From the IMG/VR virus record IMGVR_UViG_3300021197_001949, positions 1 to 64,000 of that record: a stretch of DNA of 64,000 bases; one strand, 5' to 3'. Under the pieces are notes generated by a model that saw nothing but the letters and a program-made list of their open reading frames with translations, was not told the DNA's origin and did no database searches. This document shows positions 42,496-61,638 of this stretch, piece by piece. The first letter of the stretch is position 1, and each line of letters opens with the position of its first letter. Source of the DNA: a virus. The position numbers and the translations under genes were made by a program.

Positions 42496-43156
42496 TAGTT
42501 TTTACCAAGGACAGCAAGGCGAATGTTTCAGACAGTTAGACAAACACTGGGAAGACATAAAGCACGAGTTCGACACACAACCAAACAAAACTTTCCTGGA
42601 ACCAGAAGATTTCTCTGACAGTGTGAGGGGATTGCCCGATGACTTTGATGACAGGTCAGGTGACTATGTTCACGGAGAATGGCAGGCGTTGGCAATACAG
42701 ATCGGAGAGAAGGAACTGCAAAATTTTAACGATTATCCGATGCTGTACTCCATACTGAGAAAATTTCCCTACAAGACCAATGTCGCTATCATGACTGTCG
42801 GACCAGACACGAAGATTGGTAATCATACTGACAACGAAGGAGGATGGCGGTACCAAATGTGCCTAGATGACGGAGGGGGAGACCAAAGCGGTATGCAAGT
42901 GATGAATTTAGAAACACGTGTGCAGGAACCTATGATTTGGAAAACAGGTGAAGCGTATGTTTTCCAGCCTGACAAACAATTACACAACGGATTCAACAAA
43001 AATACAAGGCCAAGGACCACGTTATTGATTGACTTTTGGAAAGAATCAGCGTACACTAAAGACAAGTTTGAAAAATATTACCAACACTATTCGGAGTGCT
43101 TCGAAGGGTTGGAAAATTTAGTGGACACATATGAATCTAGGAAAAAACAAAAATAA
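42485..43156 (+). CDS. Asp/Asn hydroxylase-like 2-oxoglutarate/Fe(II) oxygenase
   Basis: A 223-residue protein. The facial metal triad and oxoglutarate Arg can be placed: IGNHTDNEGGWRYQ near residue 111-125 (His-x-Asp), KQLHNGFNKNTRPRTTLLIDFW near 163-185 (second His, then Arg). This is the pattern of the aspartyl/asparaginyl beta-hydroxylase family. The substrate is unknown; an adhesin Asp/Asn or a small molecule are both possible. The ATG overlaps the end of the adhesin gene by 11 bases and no ribosome site is visible, so translation is probably coupled. It begins a three-enzyme island inside the fibre region. Confidence 0.7.
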   Translation: MLHSSFYQGQQGECFRQLDKHWEDIKHEFDTQPNKTFLEPEDFSDSVRGLPDDFDDRSGDYVHGEWQALAIQIGEKELQNFNDYPMLYSILRKFPYKTNVAIMTVGPDTKIGNHTDNEGGWRYQMCLDDGGGDQSGMQVMNLETRVQEPMIWKTGEAYVFQPDKQLHNGFNKNTRPRTTLLIDFWKESAYTKDKFEKYYQHYSECFEGLENLVDTYESRKKQK

Positions 43157-46013: not shown

Positions 46014-46982
46014 ATGGCATATTCGGCAGGTGATACAATTTTAGACGACGAATACAACACATTCGTAAACAGCAGTTCAGATCCATACGGATACAATCAT
46101 TTCGCAGGTACAGGAGCAGGTTCGTACGGTCTTGGACAGACACACATTGGCACAGTAGTAGCAGGCGATAACACTGTAACTGCATCAAGTTGGAATTCAT
46201 TATTCACGGGCATGGACAACATTTCCAACCACACAAACGTTTCTATCACAGCATCATCGGTCACAGCGGGAGACACAATCGCCGTGAGATCAGCATTGAT
46301 CTCAGACCTAGCCAACCTGGCGGCGGCGGTCGCGGGCGGTTCAACATCCGCAACAGCAATTTCAGAATCATCAGAATTACAGAGTTCAGTCTCATCAACA
46401 AGATGGGTAGGATCACACATAGTAGAACACTCAATCACTTTCTCTAACAACGCTGACCTAAGGCACTTCTTCAATGCTGGAGGAACCATGAGGATGAAGT
46501 TTACAAGGAATGGCAACGGCGGAAGCGGAGCCACTTCTAAGGATTCGTCAGTAGATGAACTTATCAGTGCTTGTGGAAACTTCGACCTAAAGGCGCAGGT
46601 GTCAACTAGATCAGGTTCAGGAGAGAGTCTCACAGACGGTCTGGCAAACGGAGCGGCAGATCTTGATGCTAGTTACACGCAGTTGATGATCCTGACACAG
46701 TCTTCAGGCACATACACCTCAATGAACTTGAAGGTAGAGGCAAAGACAAACAACACAGACTACACAGATGCGACAGTGATAACAATGAAATACTCACTGA
46801 CTGATCCAGACTCAGGTGACGGCGAGTTCACAAGCGGTAACACATCAGGTGTTGATCAATACGCGAACTTCATCGGTCAGACCGACTTCGCCTTACACAC
46901 TGTGAACCCAACAACAGCACAGGGTCTAGCAAGTGTGGCGGCAATCGCCAGTAGCGCCGTGGTCAGCAACACTACTGCATAA
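46014..46982 (+). CDS. Virion/tail-fibre-associated protein, unassigned
   Basis: A 322-residue protein, Ser/Thr/Ala-rich and beta-rich. The middle (SSTRWVGSHIVEHSITFSNNADLRHFFNAGGTMRMKF) resembles a segment common in virion proteins of marine myoviruses. The C-terminal half has alternating strands (STYTSMNLKVEAKTN, VITMKYSLTDPDSGD). No enzyme motif. Last gene of the fibre block; a host-type promoter follows directly after it. It may be an additional fibre tip or whisker-like part. Confidence 0.6.
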   Translation: MAYSAGDTILDDEYNTFVNSSSDPYGYNHFAGTGAGSYGLGQTHIGTVVAGDNTVTASSWNSLFTGMDNISNHTNVSITASSVTAGDTIAVRSALISDLANLAAAVAGGSTSATAISESSELQSSVSSTRWVGSHIVEHSITFSNNADLRHFFNAGGTMRMKFTRNGNGGSGATSKDSSVDELISACGNFDLKAQVSTRSGSGESLTDGLANGAADLDASYTQLMILTQSSGTYTSMNLKVEAKTNNTDYTDATVITMKYSLTDPDSGDGEFTSGNTSGVDQYANFIGQTDFALHTVNPTTAQGLASVAAIASSAVVSNTTA

Positions 46983-47033: not shown

Positions 47034-47351
47034 ATGGATATTGGCAATCTCAAAAAACATGCAGACCTTACGTTCAAGGTAGTCCAGGCCAAGAAGAACG
47101 CCTTGGAGCGACTTAATTCGAGGCAACTGATGGCCTACAACGGACGACTGTTCCGTGCGGACGCCAACACAATAAACATAGTGAGCACACTGAAACAACA
47201 TATGCATGAATTCTATGTGCTGGATGTCAATGACAATCCCTGCCACATCACGGATCCTGTGGATTTTCTTAGAAAACTCATCGAAAGGAATCAGGAAACA
47301 TTAAATGCATATCAACAGTTACACCAAGATCTTGCGAACAAAAGGATCTAA
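47034..47351 (+). CDS. Small protein at the head of the carbohydrate operon, unknown function
   Basis: A 105-residue protein, mostly helical at both ends (LKKHADLTFKVVQAKKNALERLN; RKLIERNQETLNAYQQLHQDLAN) with a beta-like middle (NGRLFRADANTINIVSTLK, FYVLDVNDNPCHITDPVDFL). No family recognised. No ribosome site precedes the ATG; the sigma70 promoter places the transcript start at the ATG itself. Its stop overlaps the next ATG. It may regulate or assist the operon, unproven. Confidence 0.65.
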   Translation: MDIGNLKKHADLTFKVVQAKKNALERLNSRQLMAYNGRLFRADANTINIVSTLKQHMHEFYVLDVNDNPCHITDPVDFLRKLIERNQETLNAYQQLHQDLANKRI

Positions 47352-48103
47352 TGACCACAGGTGTATTACTGTACTGCTTTGACACCCCGGAGATGGACTA
47401 CCACAAGTTGGCGGAACGTTGTGTGGCACAGATACGCAAATATCTACGACTGCCCGTTACGATCGTAACAAACTTTGAAACTTTTAAAAAATTCAAACCA
47501 TTAGGGATGATCGATTATAGGTTGGTTAAAAACAAAACCACGAATACCAGATCATACAGAGGACAGAAAGTAGCATGGCACAACAAGGAACGTGCCCTGG
47601 CATACGACCATTCACCCTACGAAACCACGATCTTGATGGATTGTGATTACTTCGTGTTTTCCTCAACACTTTTAGAATTAGTTAACACAGAGTTTGATAT
47701 TTTGTTGCATGACCGTGTGCATGACATCACAGGGAAGGACATGATCATGGGACGGAATGAAAGCACTCTGCCTTTGGTGTGGGCAACAGTCACATTGTTC
47801 CGAAAAACAGAGAATGCACGTAGGGTGTTCGACATGATAAAACATGTTCAACAGTATTACCCTCACTATCAAAATTTATATAGAATAAGATACCCTAACT
47901 ACAGGAATGATTATGCTTTTGCGATAGCCCTACACCAGTTGAATCTGGGCAACTTTATCCCAACACCCATGGCCATGTCAGCCGACAAGGTCGATGTAAT
48001 AGACAGTGATGACGACGGTATTGTTTTCAAGTATGACGACTGTGTAAACCTCATAACAGGACAGGATGTCCATGTCATGGACAAGGAGTGGTGTAATGGA
48101 TAG
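47351..48103 (+). CDS. Glycosyltransferase-like protein (GT-A type) 1
   Basis: A 250-residue protein. It opens with a Rossmann-type strand (GVLLYCFDTPEMDY), then LPVTIVTNF, and the metal-binding triad TILMDCDYFVFS (Asp-x-Asp, near residues 97-99), the DxD of GT-A glycosyltransferases. WATVTLFRKTENARRVFDMI and the NDYAFAIALHQL helix follow, typical of the acceptor half. No signal or membrane helix. Donor and acceptor are unknown. The ribosome site AAAGG lies just upstream. Confidence 0.65.
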   Translation: MTTGVLLYCFDTPEMDYHKLAERCVAQIRKYLRLPVTIVTNFETFKKFKPLGMIDYRLVKNKTTNTRSYRGQKVAWHNKERALAYDHSPYETTILMDCDYFVFSSTLLELVNTEFDILLHDRVHDITGKDMIMGRNESTLPLVWATVTLFRKTENARRVFDMIKHVQQYYPHYQNLYRIRYPNYRNDYAFAIALHQLNLGNFIPTPMAMSADKVDVIDSDDDGIVFKYDDCVNLITGQDVHVMDKEWCNG

Positions 48104-48896
48104 AGGATACATGTGGTTTGCATTGAATAATTCGACCACAGATTACATAGCACTCAGCAAGATACTAGCAACAAGCATCAAGAAATTCAACACACACAAT
48201 AAAGTTTGTATAGTGACTAACGAGCCCATCGAAGATGAATTATTTGACTATGTGAAAATTTTAAAGACAGATGATAGTGCAGGCCAGGAATGGAAGTTGA
48301 GCAATGAATACAAGGCTTTCGGTTTGTCACCATTCACACACACAATTAAATTGGAGGCCGACATGATCTTCACACAGACCACTGACTGGTGGTGGAATCA
48401 ATTATGGCAACATGATCAGGTGTTCTCCTACCACTGCAGGAACTACAAAGATAAATTGATTGAGCAAAGTTACTATAGAAAATTATTCGCCAGAAACAAT
48501 CTACCAGACGTGTACAATGGGTTGCACTATTTCAGGAAAAGCATGAAAGCGAAACAGTTCTATGACATCTGTAAGATTATTACAAAACAGTGGTCAACAG
48601 TTAAAGAAATGGTATTAGTAAACTGTCATGACGAACAACCCACCACAGATGTCGTTTATGCATTGGCAAACAAAATGCAAGATCCTTTACAGTTGGACAA
48701 AGTTGATTACGCATGGTTCAAATTCATGCATAACAAATTACACATAAATGAAATTGACTCATCATTTGACAATGACAATTACTTAAACCCTTTGAAAGTC
48801 AACGATACGTTGTACATAGGCGGATACAGACAGGACAGGGTAGTACATTATCATAACAAAGACATAGCAAAGGATTTAGATGTCCGGATTTTTTGA
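48096..48896 (+). CDS. Glycosyltransferase-like protein (GT-A type) 2
   Basis: A 266-residue protein from the ATG at 48096, chosen because AAGGAG lies 7 bases upstream and the residues from MDRGYMWFALNNST look like the family start. A frame 10 codons longer exists but has no ribosome site. Strand CIVTNEP, EYKAFGLSPFTHTIKLEADMIF (Glu-Ala-Asp instead of DxD, near residue 90) and VYNGLHYFRKSMKAKQFYDI resemble the first glycosyltransferase. It overlaps the preceding gene by 8 bases. The EAD instead of a DxD may mean weak or different metal use. Confidence 0.6.
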   Translation: MDRGYMWFALNNSTTDYIALSKILATSIKKFNTHNKVCIVTNEPIEDELFDYVKILKTDDSAGQEWKLSNEYKAFGLSPFTHTIKLEADMIFTQTTDWWWNQLWQHDQVFSYHCRNYKDKLIEQSYYRKLFARNNLPDVYNGLHYFRKSMKAKQFYDICKIITKQWSTVKEMVLVNCHDEQPTTDVVYALANKMQDPLQLDKVDYAWFKFMHNKLHINEIDSSFDNDNYLNPLKVNDTLYIGGYRQDRVVHYHNKDIAKDLDVRIF

Positions 48897-49185
48897 AGCA
48901 TTTAACAATTGGCCAAAACCTGATGTGAAGAAATACATGGTTACTTTGCAGGGCAAAGAGATAGAGGTATCTTTGCAACAGAAACTTGAAATAATTAGGA
49001 TGGGCGAGGACAAGTACATGTTGGAAAACGGTAAAATTATTTTAAAACCAGTACAAAGAAAAACAGACAGGAAGTTTCCTGTATTGTGTAGACATTCAAA
49101 TGGTTTAGGTTTCCATGACAAAGACCCCCACTGGGTGCAAGGTGTCATAAAGGAAGGGTACAAATGGCAGATAGAGTCAGAATAA
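48880..49185 (+). CDS. Small protein between two glycosyltransferase-like genes, unknown function
   Basis: A 101-residue protein. Segments: MSGFFEAFNNWPKPDVKKYMVTLQGKEIEVSLQQKLEIIRM, KYMLENGKIILKPV, FPVLCRHSNGLGFHDKDPHWVQGVI. No known family. The ATG has AAAGGA about 6 bases upstream and overlaps the previous gene by 17 bases and the next by 22. It is probably a real gene, since both overlaps have ribosome sites. Confidence 0.6.
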   Translation: MSGFFEAFNNWPKPDVKKYMVTLQGKEIEVSLQQKLEIIRMGEDKYMLENGKIILKPVQRKTDRKFPVLCRHSNGLGFHDKDPHWVQGVIKEGYKWQIESE

Positions 49186-50066
49186 GCGACCTAGACTTCG
49201 TGTACATCTCATTCAAGGAGCCAAACAAGGAAGAGAACTGGGCAGACCTCAAGAACAAAGTGCCATGGGCGAAAAGAGTTGACGGTGTCGTTGGATTCGA
49301 CAATGCACACAAGGCCGCGGCGAAAGTTGCGGAGACAGACTTCTTCATCAGCGTGGACGGGGATAACATTATAGATGAAACATTTCTTTTACAAACTCTA
49401 GATTGGGAGAAAACAAATAAAAAAGCAGTGCATAGATGGAGAGCAAAAAATAATATTAATGGATTAGTCTATGGCAATGGCGGTTTAGTTGGATGGGACA
49501 AGGAGACCTGTCTGGCAATGAAGACCCATGAGAACGCAGACAAAGATGAGAACCAGATAGACTTCTGTTGGGGTGTGCCACATGAAAACCTGTACAACTG
49601 TTATTCAAAGACAGTGATCAACGCAAGTGAGGAACAGGCGTTTGTGGCAGGTTACAGGGAAGGAGTCAAGATGAGCACTGAAAAGGGAAAACCTTTTCGC
49701 TCAAAAAATTTCAATACAATATGGCCGGAGAACTTACAGAGATTGAGCACGTGGTGTACCATTGGTGCTGACGTGGAGTATGGCAAGTACGCCATGTTGG
49801 GGGCCAGAATGGGTTGCTTCTACACGGTGCTGGAGAACTACAACACTGAATTACACATGGTTCGGGATCTTGATCACATGCTAGAGTACTTCAAAGGCAT
49901 AGTCGATAGTGACAACGTTGACTACCAACTCACCATGTTCGGCAACAGCCTGAGACAGCAATTGGACCTGCCTATAGCAGAGATGGATGAAGCACAGAGC
50001 AGATTCTACAGGTTCGTTAAACCAACACACAGGAACAAGGGGGTGCAAGATCGTGAGTACCAGTAA
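49164..50066 (+). CDS. Glycosyltransferase-like protein 3
   Basis: A 300-residue protein. The order is DLDFVYISFKEPNKEENWADL (residues 9-29), WAKRVDGVVGFDNAHKAAAKVAETDFFISVDGDNIIDE (about 36-73, with the Asp-Gly-Asp metal motif), INGLVYGNGGLVGWDKETCL, then a C-terminal half with ENYNTELHMVRDLDH. The C-terminal half of the protein at 60334-61638 has the same order, so the two are paralogues. A nucleotide-sugar glycosyltransferase is likely. AGGAAGGG stands before the ATG. It overlaps the first radical-SAM gene by 14 bases. Confidence 0.6.
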   Translation: MADRVRISDLDFVYISFKEPNKEENWADLKNKVPWAKRVDGVVGFDNAHKAAAKVAETDFFISVDGDNIIDETFLLQTLDWEKTNKKAVHRWRAKNNINGLVYGNGGLVGWDKETCLAMKTHENADKDENQIDFCWGVPHENLYNCYSKTVINASEEQAFVAGYREGVKMSTEKGKPFRSKNFNTIWPENLQRLSTWCTIGADVEYGKYAMLGARMGCFYTVLENYNTELHMVRDLDHMLEYFKGIVDSDNVDYQLTMFGNSLRQQLDLPIAEMDEAQSRFYRFVKPTHRNKGVQDREYQ

Positions 50067-51423
50067 TTACAAGTCAGACGCACTGAAGGCCAAGGAAAAA
50101 TTGAAAACAGTGTCTCCCACGATGTGCCTGGCCAAGTGGAACCAGACGTCACTGCACCTGCCAACAGGACTGACCAACAGTTGCTACCATCCACCACTGC
50201 ACAGCATAGATGAGGGCATGCTGAAAGGCAATCCCGCCGCACTGCACAACACACACGAGAAACTGCAGGAACGTGCCATGATGTTAGACGGTGACAAGCC
50301 TCAAGGTTGTAGTTACTGCTGGAACATAGAGAAGACAGGAGAAATGTCAGACAGGCACTATCGTTCGGGTGAGCCATGGGCCATGCAGGATTTCGAGGAC
50401 ATCAGGAACAATCCCATAGATGACAAGTGGTCGCCGAGATACGTGGAAGTGAACTTCAACAACGCCTGCAACTTCAAGTGCAGTTATTGTAGTCCACAGT
50501 TCTCGACCACGTGGGGCAAAGAGATCGACAGGTACGGAGAGTACCCCACTTCGCCACCACACAACGCACCAGAGCACTTCCAGGGGCGTAGACGTCCCAT
50601 ACCCAACAGGGAGGAGAACCCATACGTGACCGCTTTCTGGCGATGGTGGCCCACGCTGTACAAGAATCTGAAACACTTCCGTATGACCGGCGGTGAACCC
50701 ATGATGGATGTGAACACATACAAGGTGTTCCAGTACATAATTGACAATCCCAAACAGGACCTGCACCTAAACGTTACCAGCAACATGTGTCCGCCCGACA
50801 AGAAACTCAAAGAGAAGTACTTCAACATGGCACAGACGATATGTATGCAGGAGAAGGTGGAACACATGATGCAGTTTGTGAGCGTGGATGCGTTCGGCAA
50901 ACGTGCGGAGTACATACGTGACGGGCTGGACTTCAATCGCATGATGGACAACGTGGAGGAGTTCTTGGAGAGGATACCCGGACGTAACAGCATAACCTTC
51001 ATATGCACCTACAACAACCTCAGCATAACCAGTATGGACAGACTGTTGGAGAAGATATTGGAACTGCGTAAAAGGTACTCCAAGACGTATCAGAGGATTT
51101 GGTTCGACGTGCCACTGCTGAGGCAACCCGCATGGCAACAGATCACACTGCTACCGGAGTCATACCAGAGCATACATGAGGCGAACATAGAATACATGAA
51201 GGCCAATTCCGGTGAGGCTAACGGACTACACATATTCAAGGACTTCGAGATTCAGAAGATGCAACGCAATCTAGCATACTGGCGCGAAAACGCGGACGCA
51301 AGTACGCAAAACAAAAAAAACTTTTACGCTTTCTTCAACGAGCACGATCGCAGACGTCTCACAAGGTTCTTGAACACCTTCCCTGAGATGGAAGAGTTTT
51401 GGGAGGTATGCAGGACAGCATAA
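50053..51423 (+). CDS. Radical SAM protein 1 with N-terminal Cys cluster
   Basis: A 456-residue protein starting at GTG 50053, with AAGGGGG 9 bases upstream. An in-frame ATG at 49987 would lengthen the overlap with the previous gene to 80 bases and adds non-conserved residues. The N-terminal cluster is Cys25-x3-Trp29, Cys44, then Cys86-x2-Cys89-Trp. The radical SAM core follows: Cys139-x3-Cys143-x2-Cys146 (ACNFKCSYC) and GGEPMM near residue 214. Three cysteines bind the SAM-type 4Fe-4S cluster; the N-terminal set would hold an auxiliary cluster, as in SPASM/twitch enzymes but placed before the core. First of five consecutive related genes. Substrate unknown. Confidence 0.8.
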   Translation: MSTSNYKSDALKAKEKLKTVSPTMCLAKWNQTSLHLPTGLTNSCYHPPLHSIDEGMLKGNPAALHNTHEKLQERAMMLDGDKPQGCSYCWNIEKTGEMSDRHYRSGEPWAMQDFEDIRNNPIDDKWSPRYVEVNFNNACNFKCSYCSPQFSTTWGKEIDRYGEYPTSPPHNAPEHFQGRRRPIPNREENPYVTAFWRWWPTLYKNLKHFRMTGGEPMMDVNTYKVFQYIIDNPKQDLHLNVTSNMCPPDKKLKEKYFNMAQTICMQEKVEHMMQFVSVDAFGKRAEYIRDGLDFNRMMDNVEEFLERIPGRNSITFICTYNNLSITSMDRLLEKILELRKRYSKTYQRIWFDVPLLRQPAWQQITLLPESYQSIHEANIEYMKANSGEANGLHIFKDFEIQKMQRNLAYWRENADASTQNKKNFYAFFNEHDRRRLTRFLNTFPEMEEFWEVCRTA

Positions 51424-51425
51424 TT

Positions 51426-52769
51426 ATGGAAGATTTAGAATACAAAAAACAGATACTAGATACGAAAAGTGCAAGTTTTTGTGGAGCCAAGTGGTATAAT
51501 GCCACTATATGGTTGGGCAGTGGTATGACCACAAGTTGTCATCACCCACTTCCACACAAGATTGATCTAGAAGCAATCAAAACTAATCCTAGTGCAATAC
51601 ACAACACAGCACAAAAGAAACTGGAACGTAAACAGATGCAGTGCGGAGACAGACCAAAAGGCTGTGAATACTGTTGGAAGATAGAGGATATCAAAAGAGA
51701 TAATATCAGCGACAGGGTCTACAAATCAAAAATATTTACAAACGAAGCATTGGACTACGCACACAAAACTGATGCCAACACAGATGTAAATCTTAAAACA
51801 CTAGAAATAGCATTTGATAGGACCTGTAACTTTGCCTGTACATACTGTAATCCTGCATTTAGTTCAACGTGGGCAAACAATATCAAGAGGCAAGGACCAT
51901 ACACAGACATGAAAACAGATGGACGTAATCACTTCACCCATAGTCATGAAAGTGCAGAGCCATATAAGAAGGACGAAACGAATCCCTACGTGGAAGCGTT
52001 CTACAAATGGTGGGAAACAGATCTACACAAAAGTTTAGATGAATTAAGGATCACAGGCGGAGAGCCAATGATGTCGCCTAACCTGTGGAGACTGTTGGAT
52101 TGGATAGAAACACAAGGCGATAAAATGAATCCTAACATGACACTTGCCGTAAATTCTAACCTGGGTGCAAAGCAAAGCATCATTGACAGATTTAAAACAA
52201 AATTAAAGAAGTTTGAAAACTTTGAACTGTATACCAGTTGTGAAGCAACATTTGGACAAGCAGAATACATCAGAGATGGGTTGGTATACGGAGATTGGCA
52301 TAGTAATTTCTTGCATATGATGTTGGACAAAGTTCCACGTGCGATCCATAACATGTGTACCATAAATGCACTGTGTTTGGAGTCTCTTCCTAACCTGTTG
52401 GAAAAAATGGTATGGTTTAAGAGTGCGAGCAAGGTGTACGGACCGGAGGTCAATTTCACATTGAATATATTGAGGTTTCCTAGTTTCCAATCACCACTTG
52501 TTCTACCGGACGACCTGAGAAATAAATTTAAAGGGGACTTGGTAAAGTTTTTAAATAGCAATGAACAGCATCTAGAACACATGGAAATTAATCAAACTCA
52601 AAGGCTTATTGACTATCTGGATGTTGTGAAGACCCCACACGCAGGGGCGGCCGAACAGAGTAAACTACAAAAAGACTTTAAAGCATTTTACAGTCAATAC
52701 GACAAACGATCAGGAAAGGACTTCGAGAAGACTTTTCCAATAATAGGAGAATGGTACTGTGGCATATGA
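51426..52769 (+). CDS. Radical SAM protein 2, paralogue of protein 1
   Basis: A 447-residue protein from the ATG at 51426, which gives an N-terminus matching protein 1. N-terminal cluster: Cys19-x3-Trp23, Cys38, Cys80-x2-Cys83-Trp. Radical SAM motif Cys134-x3-Cys138-x2-Cys141 (TCNFACTYC), then GGEPMM near residue 215 and a helical C-terminal half ending KTFPIIGEWYCGI. The similarity to protein 1 extends along the whole length (for example RDGL, PYVEAF/PYVTAF). It is AT-richer than the first copy in wobble positions. Function unknown; acting with the other four is inferred from tandem layout. Confidence 0.78.
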   Translation: MEDLEYKKQILDTKSASFCGAKWYNATIWLGSGMTTSCHHPLPHKIDLEAIKTNPSAIHNTAQKKLERKQMQCGDRPKGCEYCWKIEDIKRDNISDRVYKSKIFTNEALDYAHKTDANTDVNLKTLEIAFDRTCNFACTYCNPAFSSTWANNIKRQGPYTDMKTDGRNHFTHSHESAEPYKKDETNPYVEAFYKWWETDLHKSLDELRITGGEPMMSPNLWRLLDWIETQGDKMNPNMTLAVNSNLGAKQSIIDRFKTKLKKFENFELYTSCEATFGQAEYIRDGLVYGDWHSNFLHMMLDKVPRAIHNMCTINALCLESLPNLLEKMVWFKSASKVYGPEVNFTLNILRFPSFQSPLVLPDDLRNKFKGDLVKFLNSNEQHLEHMEINQTQRLIDYLDVVKTPHAGAAEQSKLQKDFKAFYSQYDKRSGKDFEKTFPIIGEWYCGI

Positions 52770-54057
52770 GTACGGGGCCAAAGAGCCCGAGAAACTAAAA
52801 ATTAAAGATATGACTCCTAGAGAAAAAGAGTTGTTGATAGAGAGTGATACATTTTGTATGCTTCCATGGATGCATTTACATGCCTATCCGGATGGCAGGG
52901 CATACCCTTGTTGTTTTTCGTTTGATGCCTATCCTGTTGGCAATCTAAACAAACATAGTCTGAAGGAAGTGTTTAACGGAGATAAGATGAAAGAAATGCG
53001 AGTCAGGATGTTGAATAACCAGAAATCACGTGAATGTATGAAATGTTATGATCAAGAGAAATCGGGCTTTTTCTCATTACGTCTGAGTTCCAATAAACAT
53101 TTTGGTCACAATATTCCTCTGGTACACAACACACTACCAAACGGTGAAGCGGACTTCGTGATGAAGTACTGGGACATACGTTTCTCAAACTTGTGTAACA
53201 TGGCTTGCAGGAGTTGTGGTACGTGGTTTAGTTCGAATTGGTACGAAGATCATAAAAAACTTACAGGCAGTCCACCACCACATGCAAAAGTAATGAAAGT
53301 GGGAAGAAGCACCAATGACATGTGGGAACAGATGCTGGAGTCATTCGAACACGCAGAACAGTTCTACTTTGCAGGTGGTGAGCCAATCATAATGGAGGAG
53401 CATTATAGGATATTGAAAGAATTAGACAAACGTAAAATGTATCACGTGAGATTAATCTACAACACAAACTTTAGTAGAACAACGTTTAAGGATATCGATG
53501 TATTTGAATTATGGAACAAGTTTGACTCGGTATCGATCGGGGCCAGCCTAGATGCGGAAGGATCAAGAGCGGAACTTATGCGTAAAGGAACTGTATGGCA
53601 AGAAACAGTGGCAAACAGGAAACGTATGATGGAAGTTTGTCCACAGGTGGATTTTTACATATCATCAACTGTGGGACTGGTTAACAGTTTGCATGTGACT
53701 GATTTTCATAAGAGTTGGGTAGATCAAGGGTTGATCAAACCTGCAGACTTCAACTTCAATCTTTTGCAACACCCGATATGGCAGAGGATGGACATATTAC
53801 CACCAGAATACAAACAGCAAGTCAAAGAAAAATACGAGTCACACATAGAATGGTTGAAGGACAAGGATCCATTGACAAGAGCAACCAAAGGATACGAATC
53901 AGCAATCAAATGGATGCTAAAAGAAGACAATCAAAAACACCTAGAGCTCCATATTGATCAAACAAAGAAATATGACAAAATGAGGAATGAGAACACATTA
54001 GACGTGTTCCCAGAATGGAAAGAACTGTTTGACAAGTATGACAAGAATAAAACCTAA
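52759..54057 (+). CDS. Radical SAM protein 3
   Basis: A 432-residue protein starting at GTG 52759 (GGAG 9 bases upstream). The N-terminal cluster is Cys33-x2-Pro-Trp (CMLPWMHLHAYPDG), Cys51-Cys52, and Cys93-x2-Cys96. The radical SAM motif is Cys146-x3-Cys150-x2-Cys153 (LCNMACRSC), then GGEPIIMEE near residue 210. CxxPWxH...G...PCC is a SPASM-like pattern, which in most enzymes sits after the core; here it is in front. It belongs to the same subfamily as proteins 4 and 5. Overlaps the previous gene by 11 bases. Confidence 0.8.
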   Translation: MAYEYGAKEPEKLKIKDMTPREKELLIESDTFCMLPWMHLHAYPDGRAYPCCFSFDAYPVGNLNKHSLKEVFNGDKMKEMRVRMLNNQKSRECMKCYDQEKSGFFSLRLSSNKHFGHNIPLVHNTLPNGEADFVMKYWDIRFSNLCNMACRSCGTWFSSNWYEDHKKLTGSPPPHAKVMKVGRSTNDMWEQMLESFEHAEQFYFAGGEPIIMEEHYRILKELDKRKMYHVRLIYNTNFSRTTFKDIDVFELWNKFDSVSIGASLDAEGSRAELMRKGTVWQETVANRKRMMEVCPQVDFYISSTVGLVNSLHVTDFHKSWVDQGLIKPADFNFNLLQHPIWQRMDILPPEYKQQVKEKYESHIEWLKDKDPLTRATKGYESAIKWMLKEDNQKHLELHIDQTKKYDKMRNENTLDVFPEWKELFDKYDKNKT

Positions 54058-55321
54058 AGACGGCAACAAGACATTCTGCATGGCGCCATGGACGCACACG
54101 TATCTGTCACCCCAGACTGAGAGACGTATGTGTTGTGCATCGAGGGAGCCTGCACAGAGTTTCAAGCAGTACATAGACACAGGCAATGACGCCAAGGAAT
54201 ACAAGCCTCTAACACTGAAAGAACACTGGAATTCAGATCACATGCGATCTGTGAGACTGCGTATGATGGCGGGGGAAGAACTGTCAGAGTGTGAAGTGTG
54301 CGACCACAAACTGTTGAACACAGACGTATACAGGTCATACTGGAATCAGTTGTTCAAGGACAGGGTAGACGAAGCATTTGAAAGCACGGACGAGACGGGT
54401 GCGACCACAATGCAAACGATCAGTTTTGATTATAGGTTCAACAACCTATGCAACTTCAAATGTAGGATGTGTGGTGACATGTTGAGCAGTAGTTGGGAAG
54501 CAGAATCTAGGAAAAATAAAACTTGGACCAAGGAATCACAACCATGGATGGCATCACCTTTAAGGGAACAAATAATAAAATTCCAAGACACGCAGGTTGT
54601 ACAGGAGTTCGTCGAAGCAGTTGAAACAAAAAGAATAAAAGAAATATATTGGTGCGGTGGAGAACCGTTAATGTGGGAGATGCATTGGAAAGCCATGCAA
54701 CGAATAATAGAACTAGGATTCGCAAAAGAAGTTTATGTGAGATACAACACCAATCTAAGCAGGACGTCATTCAAAGGCACAAAGTTATTTGACTTGTTAC
54801 CGCAGTTCCAAGACTGGCAAATATGTTCATCACTGGACGGAACAGGAGAAGTTGGTGAATATATCAGAGACGGACTGAACTATGAGCAGTGGTTACGTAA
54901 TTTCAAAGAAGGATTAGCAGTGGCAAAAACGGCCAGGGAGATGAGATTAGATTACACAATTACAATGCCTGGTTTGCTAGAACTTAAAAATATGTTTGAT
55001 TTAAGCAGAGAGCTGGACACAGAGATATTGACAAAAGTCATGTTCACTTTTAGCAATGATGAGGTTCTAAGTCCATTAGCACTGCCTAAACAACTGCTAC
55101 ACACACTCATTGACGAAGCACTGGCATACATGGAACCTCTTGCCTCTAGAAAACAACGCTCATTGATAGACGTAATAAAAAATTTAAAAAATAGAGAAAC
55201 CTTTACACCAACTAAAAAAGGAAAACAGAGACAAGAAAGCATTGACAAGATCAGAAGACAGGATATAGCCAAAATATTAAGCAGAGATGAAAGGGTGTTG
55301 GACTGGTGGACAAGTATATAG
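54038..55321 (+). CDS. Radical SAM protein 4
   Basis: A 427-residue protein from the ATG at 54038 (an in-frame TTG lies 9 bases earlier). N-terminal cluster: Cys14-x2-Pro-Trp (CMAPWTHTYLSP), Cys32-Cys33, and Cys-x-x-Cys in SECEVCDHKLL. The radical SAM motif is Cys138-x3-Cys142-x2-Cys145 (LCNFKCRMC), and WCGGEPLMWE follows near residue 207. The last third is helical and ends DWWTSI. Lys/Arg-rich KKGKQRQESIDKIRRQ near the C-terminus might bind nucleic acid or phosphate; that is speculative. Confidence 0.8.
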   Translation: MTRIKPKDGNKTFCMAPWTHTYLSPQTERRMCCASREPAQSFKQYIDTGNDAKEYKPLTLKEHWNSDHMRSVRLRMMAGEELSECEVCDHKLLNTDVYRSYWNQLFKDRVDEAFESTDETGATTMQTISFDYRFNNLCNFKCRMCGDMLSSSWEAESRKNKTWTKESQPWMASPLREQIIKFQDTQVVQEFVEAVETKRIKEIYWCGGEPLMWEMHWKAMQRIIELGFAKEVYVRYNTNLSRTSFKGTKLFDLLPQFQDWQICSSLDGTGEVGEYIRDGLNYEQWLRNFKEGLAVAKTAREMRLDYTITMPGLLELKNMFDLSRELDTEILTKVMFTFSNDEVLSPLALPKQLLHTLIDEALAYMEPLASRKQRSLIDVIKNLKNRETFTPTKKGKQRQESIDKIRRQDIAKILSRDERVLDWWTSI

Positions 55322-56484
55322 ATTCAAACATATGTCCATTGCCGTGGAACCATTTAGAGGTTGATGTAAATGGCGGTGCATCTCCTTGCTGTTTGTACAA
55401 GGGCAGTATTCCTGGAGTAAAAGTGTACGAACAAAGTCTAAAGTCTATACAATATACAGAATACATGGACAATCTTAGAGCACAGTTTAGAAAAGGTGAA
55501 CGTCCTAAAGGTTGTCAGAGTTGTTGGCAAGAAGAAGATGCCGGCAAAACTTCTAAAAGGCAAAACTCCATATACAAGATGCGTAGCAGTCTAGAAAAAT
55601 GGACACCTAATAGCGAGCCAACGTTGAAGTTTATTGACTTTAAGTTAGGCAACGTGTGTAATTTAAAATGTAGGATATGTGGATCGTGGAGTTCTAGCAA
55701 ATGGGCACAGGAAGAAATAGATTATGAGACAGCCAAGGGTGGAGACAATCCTGTCGCTAGAAAACAACTGAAGGAGGGCGGCTGGCCAAAACGTAACCCA
55801 CAATTTTTTGAGGAGTTACAAGAGGATCTAAAACACGTGGAGTACTTTGAGTTCACCGGCGGCGAGCCGTTCATGATTAAGGACCACTTCAAGATCTTGA
55901 TGCATTGTGTGGAGAAGGGATATGCAAAGAACATAGACATACACTACAACACCAACGGCACACAGTTGCCTCCGCAGGATATATTTGACCTGTGGAGTTA
56001 TTTCAAACATGTAGAAGTGGCGTTCAGCATCGATGACGTCGGAGAACCTTTTGAGTATCAGAGGCATCCAGCCAAATGGAGAGAGGTGAGTCAGAATCTC
56101 GTCAAGTTTAAGGAAATGAAAACACACAACATGGATTTCCAGATATGTTCTACGGTTTCTATTTTTAACGTTTTTAACTGGGCCAAGATAGCATTATGGG
56201 TGGCACAATTCCAGCCGAAGTTCTTCTACGTCAACACCTGTTTTGATCCGGACGTGTTCAACATACAGACACTGCCACGACAGGTAAAAGACATAGTAGT
56301 GGACAGATACCACATGCTCACAGACTATCAGCCCAGCATACGATTCATGAATGCGGCCGACAGGGATACTCCTGAGATACGGGCAGAAAGAAAAAGAAGG
56401 ATACTACAGACGGACCGGTATCGGAAGGAAAATTTTGGAGAGGTGTTCCCACTTTTAAATAACATATTGAGGATATATGAGTAA
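55306..56484 (+). CDS. Radical SAM protein 5
   Basis: A 392-residue protein from a GTG at 55306, overlapping the previous gene by 16 bases. N-terminal cluster Cys10-x2-Pro-Trp-Asn-His (CPLPWNH), Cys28-Cys29, then GCQSCWQEED. Radical SAM motif Cys118-x3-Cys122-x2-Cys125 (VCNLKCRIC), GGEPFMIKD near 190, and NTNGTQLPP plus SIDDVGEPFEYQR in the second half, which is typical of the radical SAM barrel. It is the shortest of the five and is followed directly by an SGNH-type gene (ATG overlaps by 8 bases). Confidence 0.8.
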   Translation: MDKYIDSNICPLPWNHLEVDVNGGASPCCLYKGSIPGVKVYEQSLKSIQYTEYMDNLRAQFRKGERPKGCQSCWQEEDAGKTSKRQNSIYKMRSSLEKWTPNSEPTLKFIDFKLGNVCNLKCRICGSWSSSKWAQEEIDYETAKGGDNPVARKQLKEGGWPKRNPQFFEELQEDLKHVEYFEFTGGEPFMIKDHFKILMHCVEKGYAKNIDIHYNTNGTQLPPQDIFDLWSYFKHVEVAFSIDDVGEPFEYQRHPAKWREVSQNLVKFKEMKTHNMDFQICSTVSIFNVFNWAKIALWVAQFQPKFFYVNTCFDPDVFNIQTLPRQVKDIVVDRYHMLTDYQPSIRFMNAADRDTPEIRAERKRRILQTDRYRKENFGEVFPLLNNILRIYE

Positions 56485-57280
56485 ATTTATAGCAGGCGGA
56501 TGCAGTTTCACGTTGGGCAATGAACTCAGTGATGACAAGGATGGAAAGACACCATCCAAAAAATCTTGGGCCCATGGCTTATTCAAAACCTGTAGGGACG
56601 ACGACAACACAACGTATCTGTGCTCTGCTTTCGGTGGTCTAGGAAATTCTGCGATAGCCAGGAGGACCTTCAATGCTATAAGCCAGAGTGAACGTGTGGA
56701 CTGTGTGGTCGTGATGTGGAGTTTCCTGTCCAGGTATGACTGGGCCATGCCCAGGCACAAATCTTTAGAAAACACTAGGTGGACATCTATTTCTCCCTGG
56801 GACACGAACGCAGGCAATGAAGAAGCACTAATAACATTGGCAGGATCAGAGACACAGCAGGAGCAATGGAGAACCAGGAGGGACACATTCGCGGAGTCGG
56901 GAGTGAAACCGTTCGCGGAAGCAATCTACAAACATGCGGCCAACCAGTACCACGAGACATACCTCAGTTGGAAGAGCATAATCTGGTTGCAGAACATCCT
57001 GGAGAAGAAGAAAATACCATACATGTTTACCCTGGCGGACAATACCTTGTTCTATAACGAATTTAAGCAACACAAGGATCAAGATACTTTTATGACTGCT
57101 CTGCATGACGAGATCAATTTTAATAATTGGTATTTCTTTGGAGAAAGGAAAATGGGGTTCAACCAATGGGCAATGCTGGAAGATTATCCACGTGGTACAA
57201 CACACCCACTTGACGAGGCACACCGAGATGCTGTAAAATTAATGCTACCAACGTTTAAAAAACTAATAGGAGAGAAATAA
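56477..57280 (+). CDS. SGNH/GDSL-hydrolase-like protein in the carbohydrate operon
   Basis: A 267-residue protein with GGCSFTLGNEL at residues 7-17 (Ser nucleophile after GC), FGGLGNSAIARRTFNAI near 53 (second block, Gly and Asn of the oxyanion hole), a WSFLSRYDW stretch, and RGTTHPLDEAHRDAVKLM near the C-terminus (Asp/His pair; here the His is in THP). GAGG lies 5 bases before the ATG. It shares its motif series with the protein at 9992-10996. An esterase or acyltransferase acting on a glycan is likely. TAATG connects it with the next small gene. Confidence 0.65.
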   Translation: MSKFIAGGCSFTLGNELSDDKDGKTPSKKSWAHGLFKTCRDDDNTTYLCSAFGGLGNSAIARRTFNAISQSERVDCVVVMWSFLSRYDWAMPRHKSLENTRWTSISPWDTNAGNEEALITLAGSETQQEQWRTRRDTFAESGVKPFAEAIYKHAANQYHETYLSWKSIIWLQNILEKKKIPYMFTLADNTLFYNEFKQHKDQDTFMTALHDEINFNNWYFFGERKMGFNQWAMLEDYPRGTTHPLDEAHRDAVKLMLPTFKKLIGEK

Positions 57281-57385: not shown

Positions 57386-57943
57386 ATGGTGCTCACAAAA
57401 ATTAAGAAAGCGTTGGAAAAAACGCCAAAGTTCGAACTGATCGAACTGCCTTACATAGATGTCACGGAAGATCCTGTGAGACCAGAATTGAGTCTGGAAT
57501 TCAGACAGGCATACGGTAGAAAGATATACGGCATCAAGGACGTGGAGGGCGACATAGCGGCCGTGATGTGTTTCGCATTCACACATGGTATTCCCAAAAG
57601 TGTAGAGGAGATGGACACCATGAGCCGGGACGCCGCTATGCAGGCCATACACAGGGCAGGACAACAAGGTTCGGTAGCAATAGCCTACACGGTGTGGGCC
57701 AAGAAGAAAGGCGGTGGCAAGCACATAGTCAATGAAGTATACAAGATGATCAAACAAAGCAATCACCTTAATAGACTGATTACATTGAGTCCATTAACGG
57801 ACATGGCCAGGAAGTTCCATCTCAAGAATGGAGCCAAGGAAGTGCAGGTTAACCTCACAACACAGAATTTCGAGTATGACGTAGAGTTGAATGATTGGGA
57901 GAAGTTCAGGGACAGGGCGAAAGGGTGGTTTAACATCAAATGA
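57386..57943 (+). CDS. GNAT-family N-acetyltransferase
   Basis: A 185-residue protein. The GNAT fold is visible as GDIAAVMCFAF (strand), SVAIAYTVWAKKKGGGKHIVNEVYKMI (strand 4 with the Gly-rich acetyl-CoA loop GGGKH near 110), RLITLSPLTDMARKFHLKNGAKEV (final helix-strand pair). These enzymes acetylate an amino group, for example on an amino sugar made by the aminotransferase further down the operon (inferred). It overlaps the carbamoyltransferase by 4 bases (ATGA). Confidence 0.75.
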   Translation: MVLTKIKKALEKTPKFELIELPYIDVTEDPVRPELSLEFRQAYGRKIYGIKDVEGDIAAVMCFAFTHGIPKSVEEMDTMSRDAAMQAIHRAGQQGSVAIAYTVWAKKKGGGKHIVNEVYKMIKQSNHLNRLITLSPLTDMARKFHLKNGAKEVQVNLTTQNFEYDVELNDWEKFRDRAKGWFNIK

Positions 57944-59412
57944 AGATACTAGGAATAAATTGCATGAATCACGATGCCGCAATGGCAGTTGTCGACTACA
58001 GCTCAGGAATGGGTGAGATACTATGGGCGGCACACAGTGAACGATATTCAAAGGTAAAGAATGATCACTACCTGAATCAGAAGATAGTGGACGAGGCCAA
58101 CACGTTTGGTCCTTTCGACAAAGTGGTGTACTACGAGAAACCCTTGCTTAAGAAAACGAGACAGTTCTACGCAGGACAGTATGGTTTGGCCATGAGTTAC
58201 ACAGAGATGCCACAATGGCATTTGGATCACTTTGGCATAAAGATAGATGAATACGTCAAACACCACGACTCACACGCCGCGGCAGGATACTTCACGTCAC
58301 CGTTCAAGGACACAGGAGCAACTATACTCACAGTGGACGCCATAGGTGAGTGGGATACTGTTTCCATATCAACAGCGGATAAGAATCACATAGAAAGAAA
58401 AGAAACAATCAAATATCCACACAGCATAGGTATATTGTATTCAGCATTCACACATCGTTGTGGACTCAAGCCTGCGGAAGAGGAATACATCCTGATGGGA
58501 ATGGCCGCTTATGGCACGCCAAAGTACAAACAGAAGATATATGATGACTTCGTGGAACAGTCTCCTTTCAAACTTAAACAGAATTTACACAGGGGACTGA
58601 GCGGTTGGGAACCAAACGCAGACGTGATGGACATAGCGGCCAGCATACAGGCAGTCACAGAAGAATGCCTCGCAGATCTATGGACGAGAGCATCCAAGTA
58701 TGGCAGTAGGAACTTGGTGTATGCAGGCGGGGTGGCACTCAATTGTGCCGCAAATAGAGTATTGGCAAACATGGGACTGTTCGATAACATATGGATTATT
58801 CCAAATCCAGGAGATGCAGGGTCAAGCCTAGGATGTATTGCCGCACACGAAAAGAGACATCTTAATTGGCAACACCCATTCCTTGGCCACAACATAGATG
58901 GAGAGTATCCTGTAGATGCACTGATAAAAGAATTAAAGGAAAACAAGATGGTAGGAGTGGCCAGTGGCAGGGCGGAGTTTGGTCCTAGGGCACTTGGTAA
59001 TAGATCACTGTTGGCAGACCCCAGGGGTGAGGACATCAAGGATCTGGTAAACTCAATCAAGAAAAGACAGAAGTTCAGACCGTTCGCTCCGGCCATATTA
59101 GAGGAGGATGTACACGAGTATTTTGACCTGCCTAAAGCAGTACAAAACACCCCTTATATGCAATTTACAGCGGCGTGTACGCATGGTAAAGAGTTTCCTG
59201 CCATAATACATCATGATCACACAAGTAGGGTCCAAACGGTGCGTAAGACGGATAATCCAGGGTTTCATGCGTTGTTAACGGAATGGAAACGACAGACTGG
59301 TTGCCCTATACTTTTGAACACCAGTTTGAACATAAAAGGACAACCAATAGTCAACGACAGGGAGGATGGTAAAGCGTTTACCAACAAATACGGAGTGAAA
59401 GTACTAGGATGA
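57940..59412 (+). CDS. Carbamoyltransferase (NodU/CmcH/TobZ family)
   Basis: A 490-residue protein with the two-domain plan of carbamoyltransferases. N-terminal ASKHA-type domain: MNHDAAMAVVDY near residue 9, HHDSHAAAGYF near 107, VDAIGEWDTVS, GGVALNCAANR near 266. C-terminal YrdC-like domain: ASGRAEFGPRALGNRSLLADPR near 345, KFRPFAPAIL near 375, NTSLNIKGQPIV near 465. It transfers a carbamoyl group from carbamoyl phosphate through an adenylate to a hydroxyl of a sugar or antibiotic. The acceptor here is unknown; a sugar from this operon is the obvious guess. Confidence 0.88.
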   Translation: MKILGINCMNHDAAMAVVDYSSGMGEILWAAHSERYSKVKNDHYLNQKIVDEANTFGPFDKVVYYEKPLLKKTRQFYAGQYGLAMSYTEMPQWHLDHFGIKIDEYVKHHDSHAAAGYFTSPFKDTGATILTVDAIGEWDTVSISTADKNHIERKETIKYPHSIGILYSAFTHRCGLKPAEEEYILMGMAAYGTPKYKQKIYDDFVEQSPFKLKQNLHRGLSGWEPNADVMDIAASIQAVTEECLADLWTRASKYGSRNLVYAGGVALNCAANRVLANMGLFDNIWIIPNPGDAGSSLGCIAAHEKRHLNWQHPFLGHNIDGEYPVDALIKELKENKMVGVASGRAEFGPRALGNRSLLADPRGEDIKDLVNSIKKRQKFRPFAPAILEEDVHEYFDLPKAVQNTPYMQFTAACTHGKEFPAIIHHDHTSRVQTVRKTDNPGFHALLTEWKRQTGCPILLNTSLNIKGQPIVNDREDGKAFTNKYGVKVLG

Positions 59413-60368
59413 AATATCTAATAACTGGCGGACTTGGATTTATTGGATCTAAGATTATTGAAAAACTTTCCAATGACGGACACAGTATCACGTGTGTGGA
59501 CAACGAAGACACGTATGACATACTGACAAAGGTGGAGTTAAACAAACTTATTGCGTGGAGGACACGTAACTGGATACACAAGAACATAAATGTGATAAAG
59601 GGTGACATACTAGATCGGATGGTATGTCTAAAAGCATTTACAACTCGTCCGGAGATTGTGATACATCTTGCAACGTACCCGAGGGCAAAGATAGTAGACC
59701 AAGATCCAATAAACGGAATACCCAAAGTGATCGGCACAACAACAAATTTATTGTGGCACGCCACTCAGTTTGACACAAAGAAATTTGTGTACATCAGCAG
59801 TAGTATGGTTTATGGAGATTTTGGAGACGGAACAAGGGAAGAATCAAACACTAAACCACAAAATATATATGGCGAGGCCAAACTCACAGGGGAGAGGTTA
59901 ACGAAACTATTCGCAAAGCGTGATGGACTAAATTACACGATAGTAAGACCCAGTGGCGTGTACGGTCCTGGTGACCTACCAGATAGGGTAGTATCTAAGT
60001 TTTTTGCCAAGGCGATGGCCAATGAACAGATCACTTTACACAACGGTGAGAACAAAGTGGACTTCACGTACAGGCAGGATGCCGCGTATGGAATAATCAA
60101 GGCGGCCAACAGTGAAGTTGCCAACACAAGTTTCAACATCACGGCGGGCAACGCTACAAGCCTAAGGACACTAGCAGAAACAATAATTGATATCACAGGC
60201 AGTAAGTCCGAAGTGAAAGACATCGGAATGCACAAATTGTACCCAATGAGGGGAACACTAGATATCAGAAGGGCAAAGGATCTGCTCGATTACGAACCAC
60301 AGTATTCATTTAGACAAGGACTTGAAAGTTACTATGACTGGATTCGACAGTATACAGGTAAGATTTAA
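59409..60368 (+). CDS. NAD-dependent nucleotide-sugar epimerase/dehydratase
   Basis: A 319-residue extended SDR protein. ITGGLGFIGSKIIEKL at residues 4-19 (NAD-binding GxxGxxG), VIHLATYPRAK near 85, SSSMVYGDFGDGTREES near 126 (Ser of the catalytic triad), IYGEAKLTGERL near 154 (Tyr-x-x-x-Lys), VRPSGVYGPGD near 180. Length and motifs fit UDP-glucose 4-epimerase or dTDP-glucose dehydratase relatives; the exact activity cannot be told. The ATG overlaps the stop of the carbamoyltransferase gene by 4 bases. Confidence 0.88.
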   Translation: MKYLITGGLGFIGSKIIEKLSNDGHSITCVDNEDTYDILTKVELNKLIAWRTRNWIHKNINVIKGDILDRMVCLKAFTTRPEIVIHLATYPRAKIVDQDPINGIPKVIGTTTNLLWHATQFDTKKFVYISSSMVYGDFGDGTREESNTKPQNIYGEAKLTGERLTKLFAKRDGLNYTIVRPSGVYGPGDLPDRVVSKFFAKAMANEQITLHNGENKVDFTYRQDAAYGIIKAANSEVANTSFNITAGNATSLRTLAETIIDITGSKSEVKDIGMHKLYPMRGTLDIRRAKDLLDYEPQYSFRQGLESYYDWIRQYTGKI

Positions 60369-61638
60369 AAACACTAAACACTGGCCATCACCTTTTGCTA
60401 ACACAAGAGAAGTGCCGTTTGTTGACAGTTACCTTACTGTGTTGAAGTCGGTAATAGACGATATACAGACAGAATACTTTTGGTTCTTCGCAAACTTCAT
60501 GAATCTCAAAACAATGGATCTTAATTATATTCCAGAACAGCACGAGAGTAAACAGGTACATGTTTGGTACAACACTCATCCGTTGGGAGGTACCAACAAG
60601 GAGGGCAATGTATTTTTATTGCCTACCGAGGCACTTCGGAAACAGATAAAGGATCTAAAATTTTTACGAGACTTCAAAGATATTAATTATCATGCCCACA
60701 CTAATCTTTTTCAAAATTTTATACCTAAGATAAGTTTCAAATTGAAGAATCCTTACACGAGGTACAAAGACACAGAACCAACTTACTACAAATGGCTACA
60801 CAACAAAGATTTGGAGCCATCAATAATACCTAACTTTTTTCCTAGTTTTTGGGAGGATGTCAAATTGTATACGTTTGGTGAAACAAAGGACGTGATGTTA
60901 GTACCTCACAAAGATAATATAAAACAGTTTTATGATATTGATAGGATAGTCCACCATGACCTAGAATATCCGGTCAAGCCAATGGACATAATATTCATAT
61001 CATACGATGAGCCTAGTGCGGAAAAACGATTTAATCAATTAAAGAAAAGGTTTCCCAGAGCCAAATGGGCGAAGAACATCATAGGACAAACACTTGCTTA
61101 CATGGCGGCGGCCGCCATGAGCGATACAGATTATTTCTTTGCGGTATTTCCTAAATTAGAAATAGTAGAAAATTTTAAATTTGACTTCCAACCAGACAGG
61201 CTTAAAAATCCTTGCCATTATATATTCAATTGCAAGAATCCAGTGAATGGACTGGAATACGGACACGGTGCAGTATTACTGTACAACAAGGAACTTGTTA
61301 TGAAAACTACCAATCCCGGACTTGATTTTACTCTGTCAGCACCACACGAAGTTGTACCAATTTTAAGTGCAATAAATCATTTCAACCAGACACCATGGTT
61401 AGCATGGCGTACCTCATTTAGAGAGGTTATTAAATTACTACAAGCAAAACCAACCGTAGAGGGTGTTTATAGATTAAAGAAATGGCTCATGATGGGAGAG
61501 GGAGAAAACGCAGACTGGGTATTCAAAGGGGCCAATGATGCCAAGAAGTTTTTTGATAAAAACAAAGACAACCATGACGAATTAATGTTATCATATGATT
61601 TTGAATGGTTAAAGAAATATTATGAATCAAAATATTAA
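60334..61638 (+). CDS. Glycosyltransferase-like protein 4, two domains
   Basis: A 434-residue protein. The N-terminal domain (about 1-200, starting MTGFDSIQVRFKN) resembles a strand-rich domain with repeated VHVWYNTHPLGG and VFLLPTE segments. The C-terminal half (MDIIFISYDEPSAEKRF, AKWAKNIIGQTLAYMAAAAMSDTDYFFAVFP, GLEYGHGAVLLYN) follows the order of the protein at 49164-50066, but the Asp-x-Asp is not obvious (FAVFP). An in-frame TTG at 60322 lies 12 bases upstream; I chose the ATG at 60334. It overlaps the epimerase by 35 bases and the aminotransferase gene by 17. Confidence 0.6.
   Translation: MTGFDSIQVRFKNTKHWPSPFANTREVPFVDSYLTVLKSVIDDIQTEYFWFFANFMNLKTMDLNYIPEQHESKQVHVWYNTHPLGGTNKEGNVFLLPTEALRKQIKDLKFLRDFKDINYHAHTNLFQNFIPKISFKLKNPYTRYKDTEPTYYKWLHNKDLEPSIIPNFFPSFWEDVKLYTFGETKDVMLVPHKDNIKQFYDIDRIVHHDLEYPVKPMDIIFISYDEPSAEKRFNQLKKRFPRAKWAKNIIGQTLAYMAAAAMSDTDYFFAVFPKLEIVENFKFDFQPDRLKNPCHYIFNCKNPVNGLEYGHGAVLLYNKELVMKTTNPGLDFTLSAPHEVVPILSAINHFNQTPWLAWRTSFREVIKLLQAKPTVEGVYRLKKWLMMGEGENADWVFKGANDAKKFFDKNKDNHDELMLSYDFEWLKKYYESKY

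Follow-up and report, generated by a model that had tools for sequence, protein, structure and literature searches.

Five ordered radical SAM genes with N-terminal twitch domains, linked to glycosyltransferase-like genes in uncultured phages

Known SPASM and twitch domains are C-terminal extensions of the radical S-adenosylmethionine (SAM) core (PMC9012708), and the SPASM motif starts with CX9-15GX4C-gap-CX2C (PMC6231123). In BtrN, the butirosin 2-deoxy-scyllo-inosamine dehydrogenase, a four-cysteine twitch domain accompanies the two-electron oxidation of a sugar-like substrate, an aminocyclitol, and the auxiliary cluster has been proposed as the electron acceptor (PMC9012708). In phages, the host-recognition cluster of uncultured T4-like pelagimyophages brings cassettes of radical SAM genes together with tail-fibre and GT8 genes, and a role in changing the O-chain of the host has been suggested for such clusters (PMC7029224). 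Here we analysed five consecutive radical SAM genes, RS1-RS5, at positions 50053-56484 of a 64,000-nucleotide stretch (the window) of the IMG/VR virus record IMGVR_UViG_3300021197_001949, in which the auxiliary cysteines of each protein are N-terminal to the CxxxCxxC core, so that the C-terminal placement of canonical SPASM/twitch enzymes is not followed.

The first-pass annotation had set this architecture against known auxiliary clusters placed after the core; the N-terminal placement is real, but it already defines a named family, NCBIfam NF033640 (N_Twi_rSAM, twitch domain-containing radical SAM protein), which has the same order of N-terminal twitch and radical SAM domains as RS1-RS5. NF033640 is defined by sequence only, and in the literature searched we found for it neither a function nor an ordered set of several paralogs; we found no assigned reaction, solved structure or paper for it, and searches for NF033640, for N-terminal twitch or SPASM domains, or for Bdellovibrio together with radical SAM returned nothing. 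Hence the architecture and the general type of island are already known, while the ordered five-slot set, its fixed glycosyltransferase partners and its counterpart among predatory bacteria appear, as far as our searches reach, to be undescribed. The set gives the impression of an ancient pathway of radical chemistry, which most probably serves to remodel a sugar coat on a surface.

All five genes lie on the plus strand. RS1 (50053-51423, with a GTG start), RS2 (51399-52769, start codon uncertain), RS3 (52759-54057), RS4 (54029-55321) and RS5 (55306-56484) matched NF033640 over essentially the whole profile with 319, 291, 400, 321 and 365 bits, respectively (E 1e-86 to 1e-119), which is 120-230 bits above the curated cut-off of 170 bits for the whole-protein score. 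Every one of the four junctions is overlapping, by 25, 11, 29 and 16 bp in order, and at the array ends RS1 overlaps the upstream gene by 14 bp and RS5 the downstream gene by 8 bp. The window has 46 called open reading frames (ORFs) with a length of 100 aa or more; exactly five of them contain both CxxxCxxC and GGE, and these are RS1-RS5 in consecutive positions, as the first-pass annotation had described them. No sixth member of the family was found in the 66,983-base virus record from which the window is taken. Moreover, Pfam SPASM (PF13186) was above its gathering score at the N terminus of RS3 (residues 33-97), RS4 and RS5 (residues 10-74).

Separate ortholog alignments were made for RS1 with RS2, for RS3 and for RS4. 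In the slot alignments the CxxxCxxC and GGE motifs of the radical SAM superfamily are invariant, and so are the auxiliary cysteines: C25, C44, C86 and C89 of RS1, whose radical SAM cysteines are C139, C143 and C146 (33 slot 1 and slot 2 sequences, some of them bacterial); C33, C51, C93 and C96 of RS3 (47 viral and bacterial sequences); and C17, C35, C36, C88 and C91 of RS4 (13 sequences). In these alignments of RS1-RS4, the cysteine cluster reported earlier in front of the core is thus kept across orthologs and bacterial homologues, and its loss, which had been named as a ground for rejecting it, was not seen. With the spacing C-x12-G-x4-C ... C-x2-C, these cysteines match the opening half of the SPASM motif, i.e. 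a twitch domain; the glycine is missing in RS4. Only four auxiliary cysteines are invariant, instead of the seven of the canonical SPASM motif with its two auxiliary clusters, and RS1-RS5 are predicted to hold the SAM-cleaving [4Fe-4S] cluster and one four-cysteine auxiliary cluster. BtrN, too, has four cysteines in its twitch domain, for one auxiliary cluster, but that domain is C-terminal. A C-terminal position is also found in the SPASM/twitch maturases CteB, anSMEcpe, SuiB and SkfB, which have the half-SPASM cysteine spacing in common with RS1-RS5 and, unlike them, carry the auxiliary domain behind the core.

AlphaFold2 models of RS1 and RS3 were confident (pLDDT 93.5 and 92.8). In Foldseek, the nearest solved folds were CteB, anSMEcpe, SuiB, SkfB and viperin, whose TM-scores on the query did not exceed 0.38, and therefore no close structural relative seems to have been solved; BtrN is not named among the matches listed. 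A search of the PDB with the RS3 profile gave no sequence match at E 0.01. Among viral predicted structures the best match was a protein of an uncultured Caudovirales (43% identity, TM 0.90), and Q6WHP4 of the Vibrio phage KVP40 has a similar predicted fold at 15% identity (TM 0.55 on the query, 0.70 on the target). Separately, at L285 (11459-13463), L393 (18363-19513) and L243 (12295-13400) a short radical SAM protein has a neighbour that carries SPASM-like cysteines, and in such pairs the auxiliary domain may be a subunit of its own.

The spread of the set among viruses was determined by IMG/VR scans, which gave 84 relatives with RS3 and 111 with RS1, or 95 nonredundant viral loci after removal of overlap. 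All five slots are present in 71 of the 95 and in two orders only, 1-2-3-4-5 in 39 loci and 1-2-3-5-4 in 32, which answers the proposal that the set be sought in other phages. The incomplete loci are mostly cut by a contig end, and a few (L070, L073, L074, L079 and L080) carry other family members. A phylogeny of 429 proteins separated the five positions into one clade each, and every clade includes members from both of two distant phage groups. RS1 and RS2 make up one subfamily (support 1.0), as had been suggested; RS3, RS4 and RS5, which had been taken as a second group, are instead three separate old clades. Orthologs of the two phage groups are 46-60% identical, whereas paralogs within the window share 20-35%, and therefore the five enzymes are old and distinct. 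Because the slots are monophyletic in the viral tree, 71 of the 95 loci are complete and only two orders occur, the copies are not interchangeable.

Searches of 50,697 deposited phage records returned no relative of RS1 and no record with the full five-gene set. The earlier statement that no phage set of this kind had been described holds for these records, but it has to be narrowed in view of the radical SAM cassettes known in pelagimyophages (PMC7029224). With RS3, the same records yielded only relatives of 22-27% identity, in the Vibrio phages K566 and K567 and in one single-cell virus contig. The N-Twi-like radical SAM genes of K566 and K567, which form arrays, and of KVP40, which has a single gene, share the similar predicted fold but fall outside the five slots, at 15-22% identity. 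In K566 (L162, 11714-29087), which might serve as a laboratory model, about five N-Twi-like genes were seen near genes that by eye resemble glycosyltransferases. On the single-cell contig, Marine virus AG-345-D19 (L163), two SGNH-like genes, a NodU-type carbamoyltransferase and an N-Twi gene lie side by side, and as a single-cell assembly it supports this combination as no artefact of metagenomes.

The array belongs to a longer block, all on the plus strand. Its first gene encodes a 322-aa tail-type protein (46014-46982), a possible substrate or target, and is followed by a 105-aa small conserved protein, s (47034-47351), whose family is found in 76 of 95 loci and has no Pfam or PHROG match. 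Three glycosyltransferase (GT)-like proteins come next, with a small protein between the last two: the GT-A-like protein A (47351-48103), which has an invariant DxD (D97, D99), occurs in 82 of 95 loci and has no database match; the GT8-like protein B (48066-48896; below, GT-B), present in 85 of 95 loci, whose profile matched glycogenin structures across an N-terminal portion that contains the DxD region (E 5.7e-5); the 101-aa protein m (48880-49185), syntenic but of the poorly conserved families 11 and 27; and the GT2-like protein C (49164-50066; below, GT-C), with an invariant DGD (D65, D67). GT-C itself gave no meaningful match in the PDB, and a bacterial homologue (L393:8490-10037) is above the cut-off for PF00535, Glycos_transf_2.

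Behind RS5 lies an SGNH-like protein (56477-57280; 58 of 95 loci), so labelled by its G-x-S-F block only and without a Pfam match, which is possibly an esterase or acyltransferase. A protein of unknown family (57386-57943; 28 of 95 loci) follows, with no significant family match and possibly GNAT-like by eye, and then a NodU/TobZ-type carbamoyltransferase (57940-59412; PF16861 and PF02543; phrog_1601, E 1e-94; 56 of 95 loci), which in the PDB matches novobiocin carbamoyltransferase, GdmN and TobZ. Variable sugar genes are located beyond it, namely a nucleotide-sugar epimerase/dehydratase of the short-chain dehydrogenase/reductase type (59409-60368; PF01370, E 2e-41), which is found in 26 of 95 loci and belongs to the variable part of the island, and a DegT/DnrJ/EryC1/StrS sugar aminotransferase (61622-62716; PF01041, E 2.5e-96). 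A 438-aa protein at 60322-61638 resembles GT-C by eye in its second half, without the DGD motif, and is possibly a degenerate glycosyltransferase.

In the phages the order is the 322-aa protein, s, A, B, m, C and the five radical SAM genes, then usually the SGNH-like protein and the carbamoyltransferase. Since the first loci had been chosen by their radical SAM genes, reverse scans were started from GT-C, which gave 49 loci, from GT-B, for which 80 of 532 loci were kept, and from the 322-aa protein, which gave 43 loci, the last with the single window protein as query, its family profile being too divergent. The same block was recovered almost everywhere, and the downstream block stands behind relatives of the 322-aa protein in 39 of the 43 loci, i.e. 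in every locus not cut just behind that gene. None of GT-B, GT-C and the 322-aa protein had a match in the deposited phage records. In a distant GT-C phage group (L282, L285 and L290) the upstream genes are unchanged but are followed by different radical SAM genes, and therefore the radical SAM array is the exchangeable part.

The pelagimyophage cluster is situated between VrlC and gp14 in a SAR11 phage. Like it, the island of the window belongs to a T4-like phage and to the structural region, and genes of the tail-fibre and GT8 types precede the array; both have an Asp/Asn hydroxylase gene, which in the window is an aspartyl/asparaginyl beta-hydroxylase-like gene (PF05118) at 42485-43156, between tail genes. 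They differ in that the window portal is nearest to those of large T4-like (jumbo) phages such as Phosso, Atu_ph07, PA5oct and CBB (~50%), no pelagimyophage being among the nearest cultured portals, and in that the five-slot order, the N-terminal twitch and the homologues in predators are not described for the pelagimyophage cluster (PMC7029224).

In the scan of bacterial genomes some hits were phage contigs binned into metagenome-assembled genomes (L164-L168). True chromosomal members are found in Bacteriovoracia, Bdellovibrionia and Bacteroidota and more rarely elsewhere, e.g. in Paenibacillus. All five slots are represented among the eight N-Twi genes of Bacteriovoracaceae UBA6144 (L170, 6049-18045), the placement in slot 3 being weakly supported, and this cluster adjoins genes resembling obgE, rpmA and lgt. 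N-Twi enzymes occur in 63 of 129 Bacteriovoracia genomes, with up to 12 copies, and GT-C homologues in nine, all of which are among the 63 (hypergeometric p = 0.001); in at least seven of these nine the GT-C homologue and N-Twi genes are within about 5 kb. Several of these islands (L388, L394 and L395) contain genes that by eye resemble GT2 glycosyltransferases and other polysaccharide enzymes.

A phage-type block was also found on a bacterial contig (L393, G060:C21, 11389-19513), composed of a 308-aa homologue of the tail-type protein, s-A-B-m-C and N-Twi genes. It lies about 4 kb from pheS/pheT-like genes, the G+C content falls from about 0.46 to 0.37, and the tail-type homologue is kept while other tail genes are absent. 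This is probably an exchange between phage and cell, with a captured phage island, seen once and at a contig end; a chimeric assembly is less likely. The 322-aa protein was not found in genomes of Bdellovibrionia, the class of G004, and in Bacteriovoracia only in G060.

With three conserved GT-like genes upstream and SGNH-like, carbamoyltransferase, epimerase and aminotransferase genes downstream, the target is likely to be a glycan or else the neighbouring tail-type protein, and five fixed enzymes behind three glycosyltransferases suggest successive changes of one glycan. The association of GT-C homologues with N-Twi enzymes in Bacteriovoracia is independent support for a glycan pathway. The first-pass annotation had left the choice between one substrate and several peptides; the five-enzyme set stands, and this context does not favour several peptides. 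We give an even chance to a five-enzyme radical tailoring pathway for a glycan on the host envelope or the virion. RS1-RS5 and the three GT-like proteins would be made from one translationally coupled operon, and the glycosyltransferases would build or extend a saccharide. Each RS enzyme would then generate a 5'-deoxyadenosyl radical from SAM at the core cluster to abstract a substrate hydrogen, and the four-cysteine auxiliary cluster would take the electron, as proposed for BtrN, so that oxidations, epimerisations or similar changes could arise at different positions of the glycan. The SGNH-like protein and the carbamoyltransferase might add further groups by carbamoylation and perhaps acylation, and the product may be displayed on the host envelope, with a change of receptor or superinfection exclusion as the result, or on the virion.

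Several points weigh against glycan tailoring. The literature on NF033640 members gave no measured substrate, product or cluster; the L170 genome has no GT-C homologue, with no obvious sugar genes beside its set; the best solved Foldseek neighbours, CteB, anSME, SuiB and SkfB, are peptide or protein maturases, albeit at the low TM-scores given above; and an association of genes is no proof of function. Moreover, the 322-aa tail-type protein that travels with the block fits a protein target equally well. Modification of a protein, above all of this one, is thus the main rival: A, B and C would glycosylate the 322-aa protein, or the 542-aa tail fibre preceding it, and RS1-RS5 would alter its residues or sugars. 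We consider it possible but clearly the less probable. The constant succession of the 322-aa gene and the downstream block, the nature of the Foldseek neighbours, the Asp/Asn hydroxylase gene starting at 42485, another protein-modifying type, and the retention of the tail-type homologue in the single chromosomal block argue for a virion protein; however, synteny is expected anyway inside a tail operon, L393 is one contig only, the array L170 has no 322-aa-type protein beside it, and the 322-aa protein is poorly conserved and without an obvious repeated acceptor motif. A version joining both ideas, an ancient five-step radical assembly line, shared by uncultured T4-like phages and predatory bacteria, that places a radical-modified glycoconjugate on the phage's own 322-aa tail-type protein, we regard as rather doubtful.

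A pathway resembling that of ribosomally synthesised and post-translationally modified peptides (RiPPs), with small peptides encoded nearby as substrates, would agree with the peptide substrates of most characterised SPASM/twitch enzymes near in fold and with the synteny of s and m. It is nevertheless unlikely: the overlapping RS1-RS5 leave no room for a small ORF, s and m have no conserved leader or core pattern, the Pfam scan reported no peptide-recognition domain, and the neighbourhood is one of glycosyltransferases and sugar enzymes. Unlike in RiPP-type maturase systems, no recognition element or precursor peptide was seen at the window locus, and re-examination of the inter-gene space and of the small conserved proteins near RS1-RS5 gave no precursor candidate, in accordance with the first-pass annotation. 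Still less probable is nucleotide chemistry, in which viperin-like or hypermodification-like enzymes would alter nucleotides or DNA. Phages do use radical SAM enzymes in DNA hypermodification, and viperin and QueE are weak neighbours in Foldseek and NCBIfam, but in NCBIfam they reach 14-31 bits where the cut-offs demand 180 and 260, the genes lie in a tail and glycan island away from the replication genes, and viperin has, to our knowledge, no N-terminal twitch domain. A dosage effect of five near-redundant duplicates, to which the tandem arrangement of one family might point, is contradicted by the monophyletic slots and the fixed order, with orthologs of distant phages far more alike than paralogs of one genome.

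These data give the orphan family NF033640 a putative pathway, for which the order, the partners and candidate targets can be named: five members are fixed beside constant glycosyltransferases in dozens of phages, and all five occur on a predator chromosome. Vibrio phages and Bacteriovoracia offer relatives that are open to genetics. Should a surface glycan be the product, some uncultured phages would possess a sugar chemistry that no cultured phage is known to have; if it is a glycoconjugate on the 322-aa protein, this would be a viral post-translational glyco-radical modification system, with twitch clusters at the front of the enzymes.

Other contexts of the family, and one further feature of the window, were recorded. 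One Bdellovibrionia genome (L243-L244, G004:C1) has 20 N-Twi genes, about 14 of which lie within about 30 kb among radical SAM genes of other kinds, and this is a candidate biosynthetic island. The single N-Twi gene of a Paenibacillus sp. (L196, 10004-11296) stands amid genes resembling those of acyl-carrier protein, ketosynthase and ketoreductase, which puts this family member in a setting of secondary metabolism. In the window itself, the structural region includes an ORF of 4,296 aa at 24475-37365.

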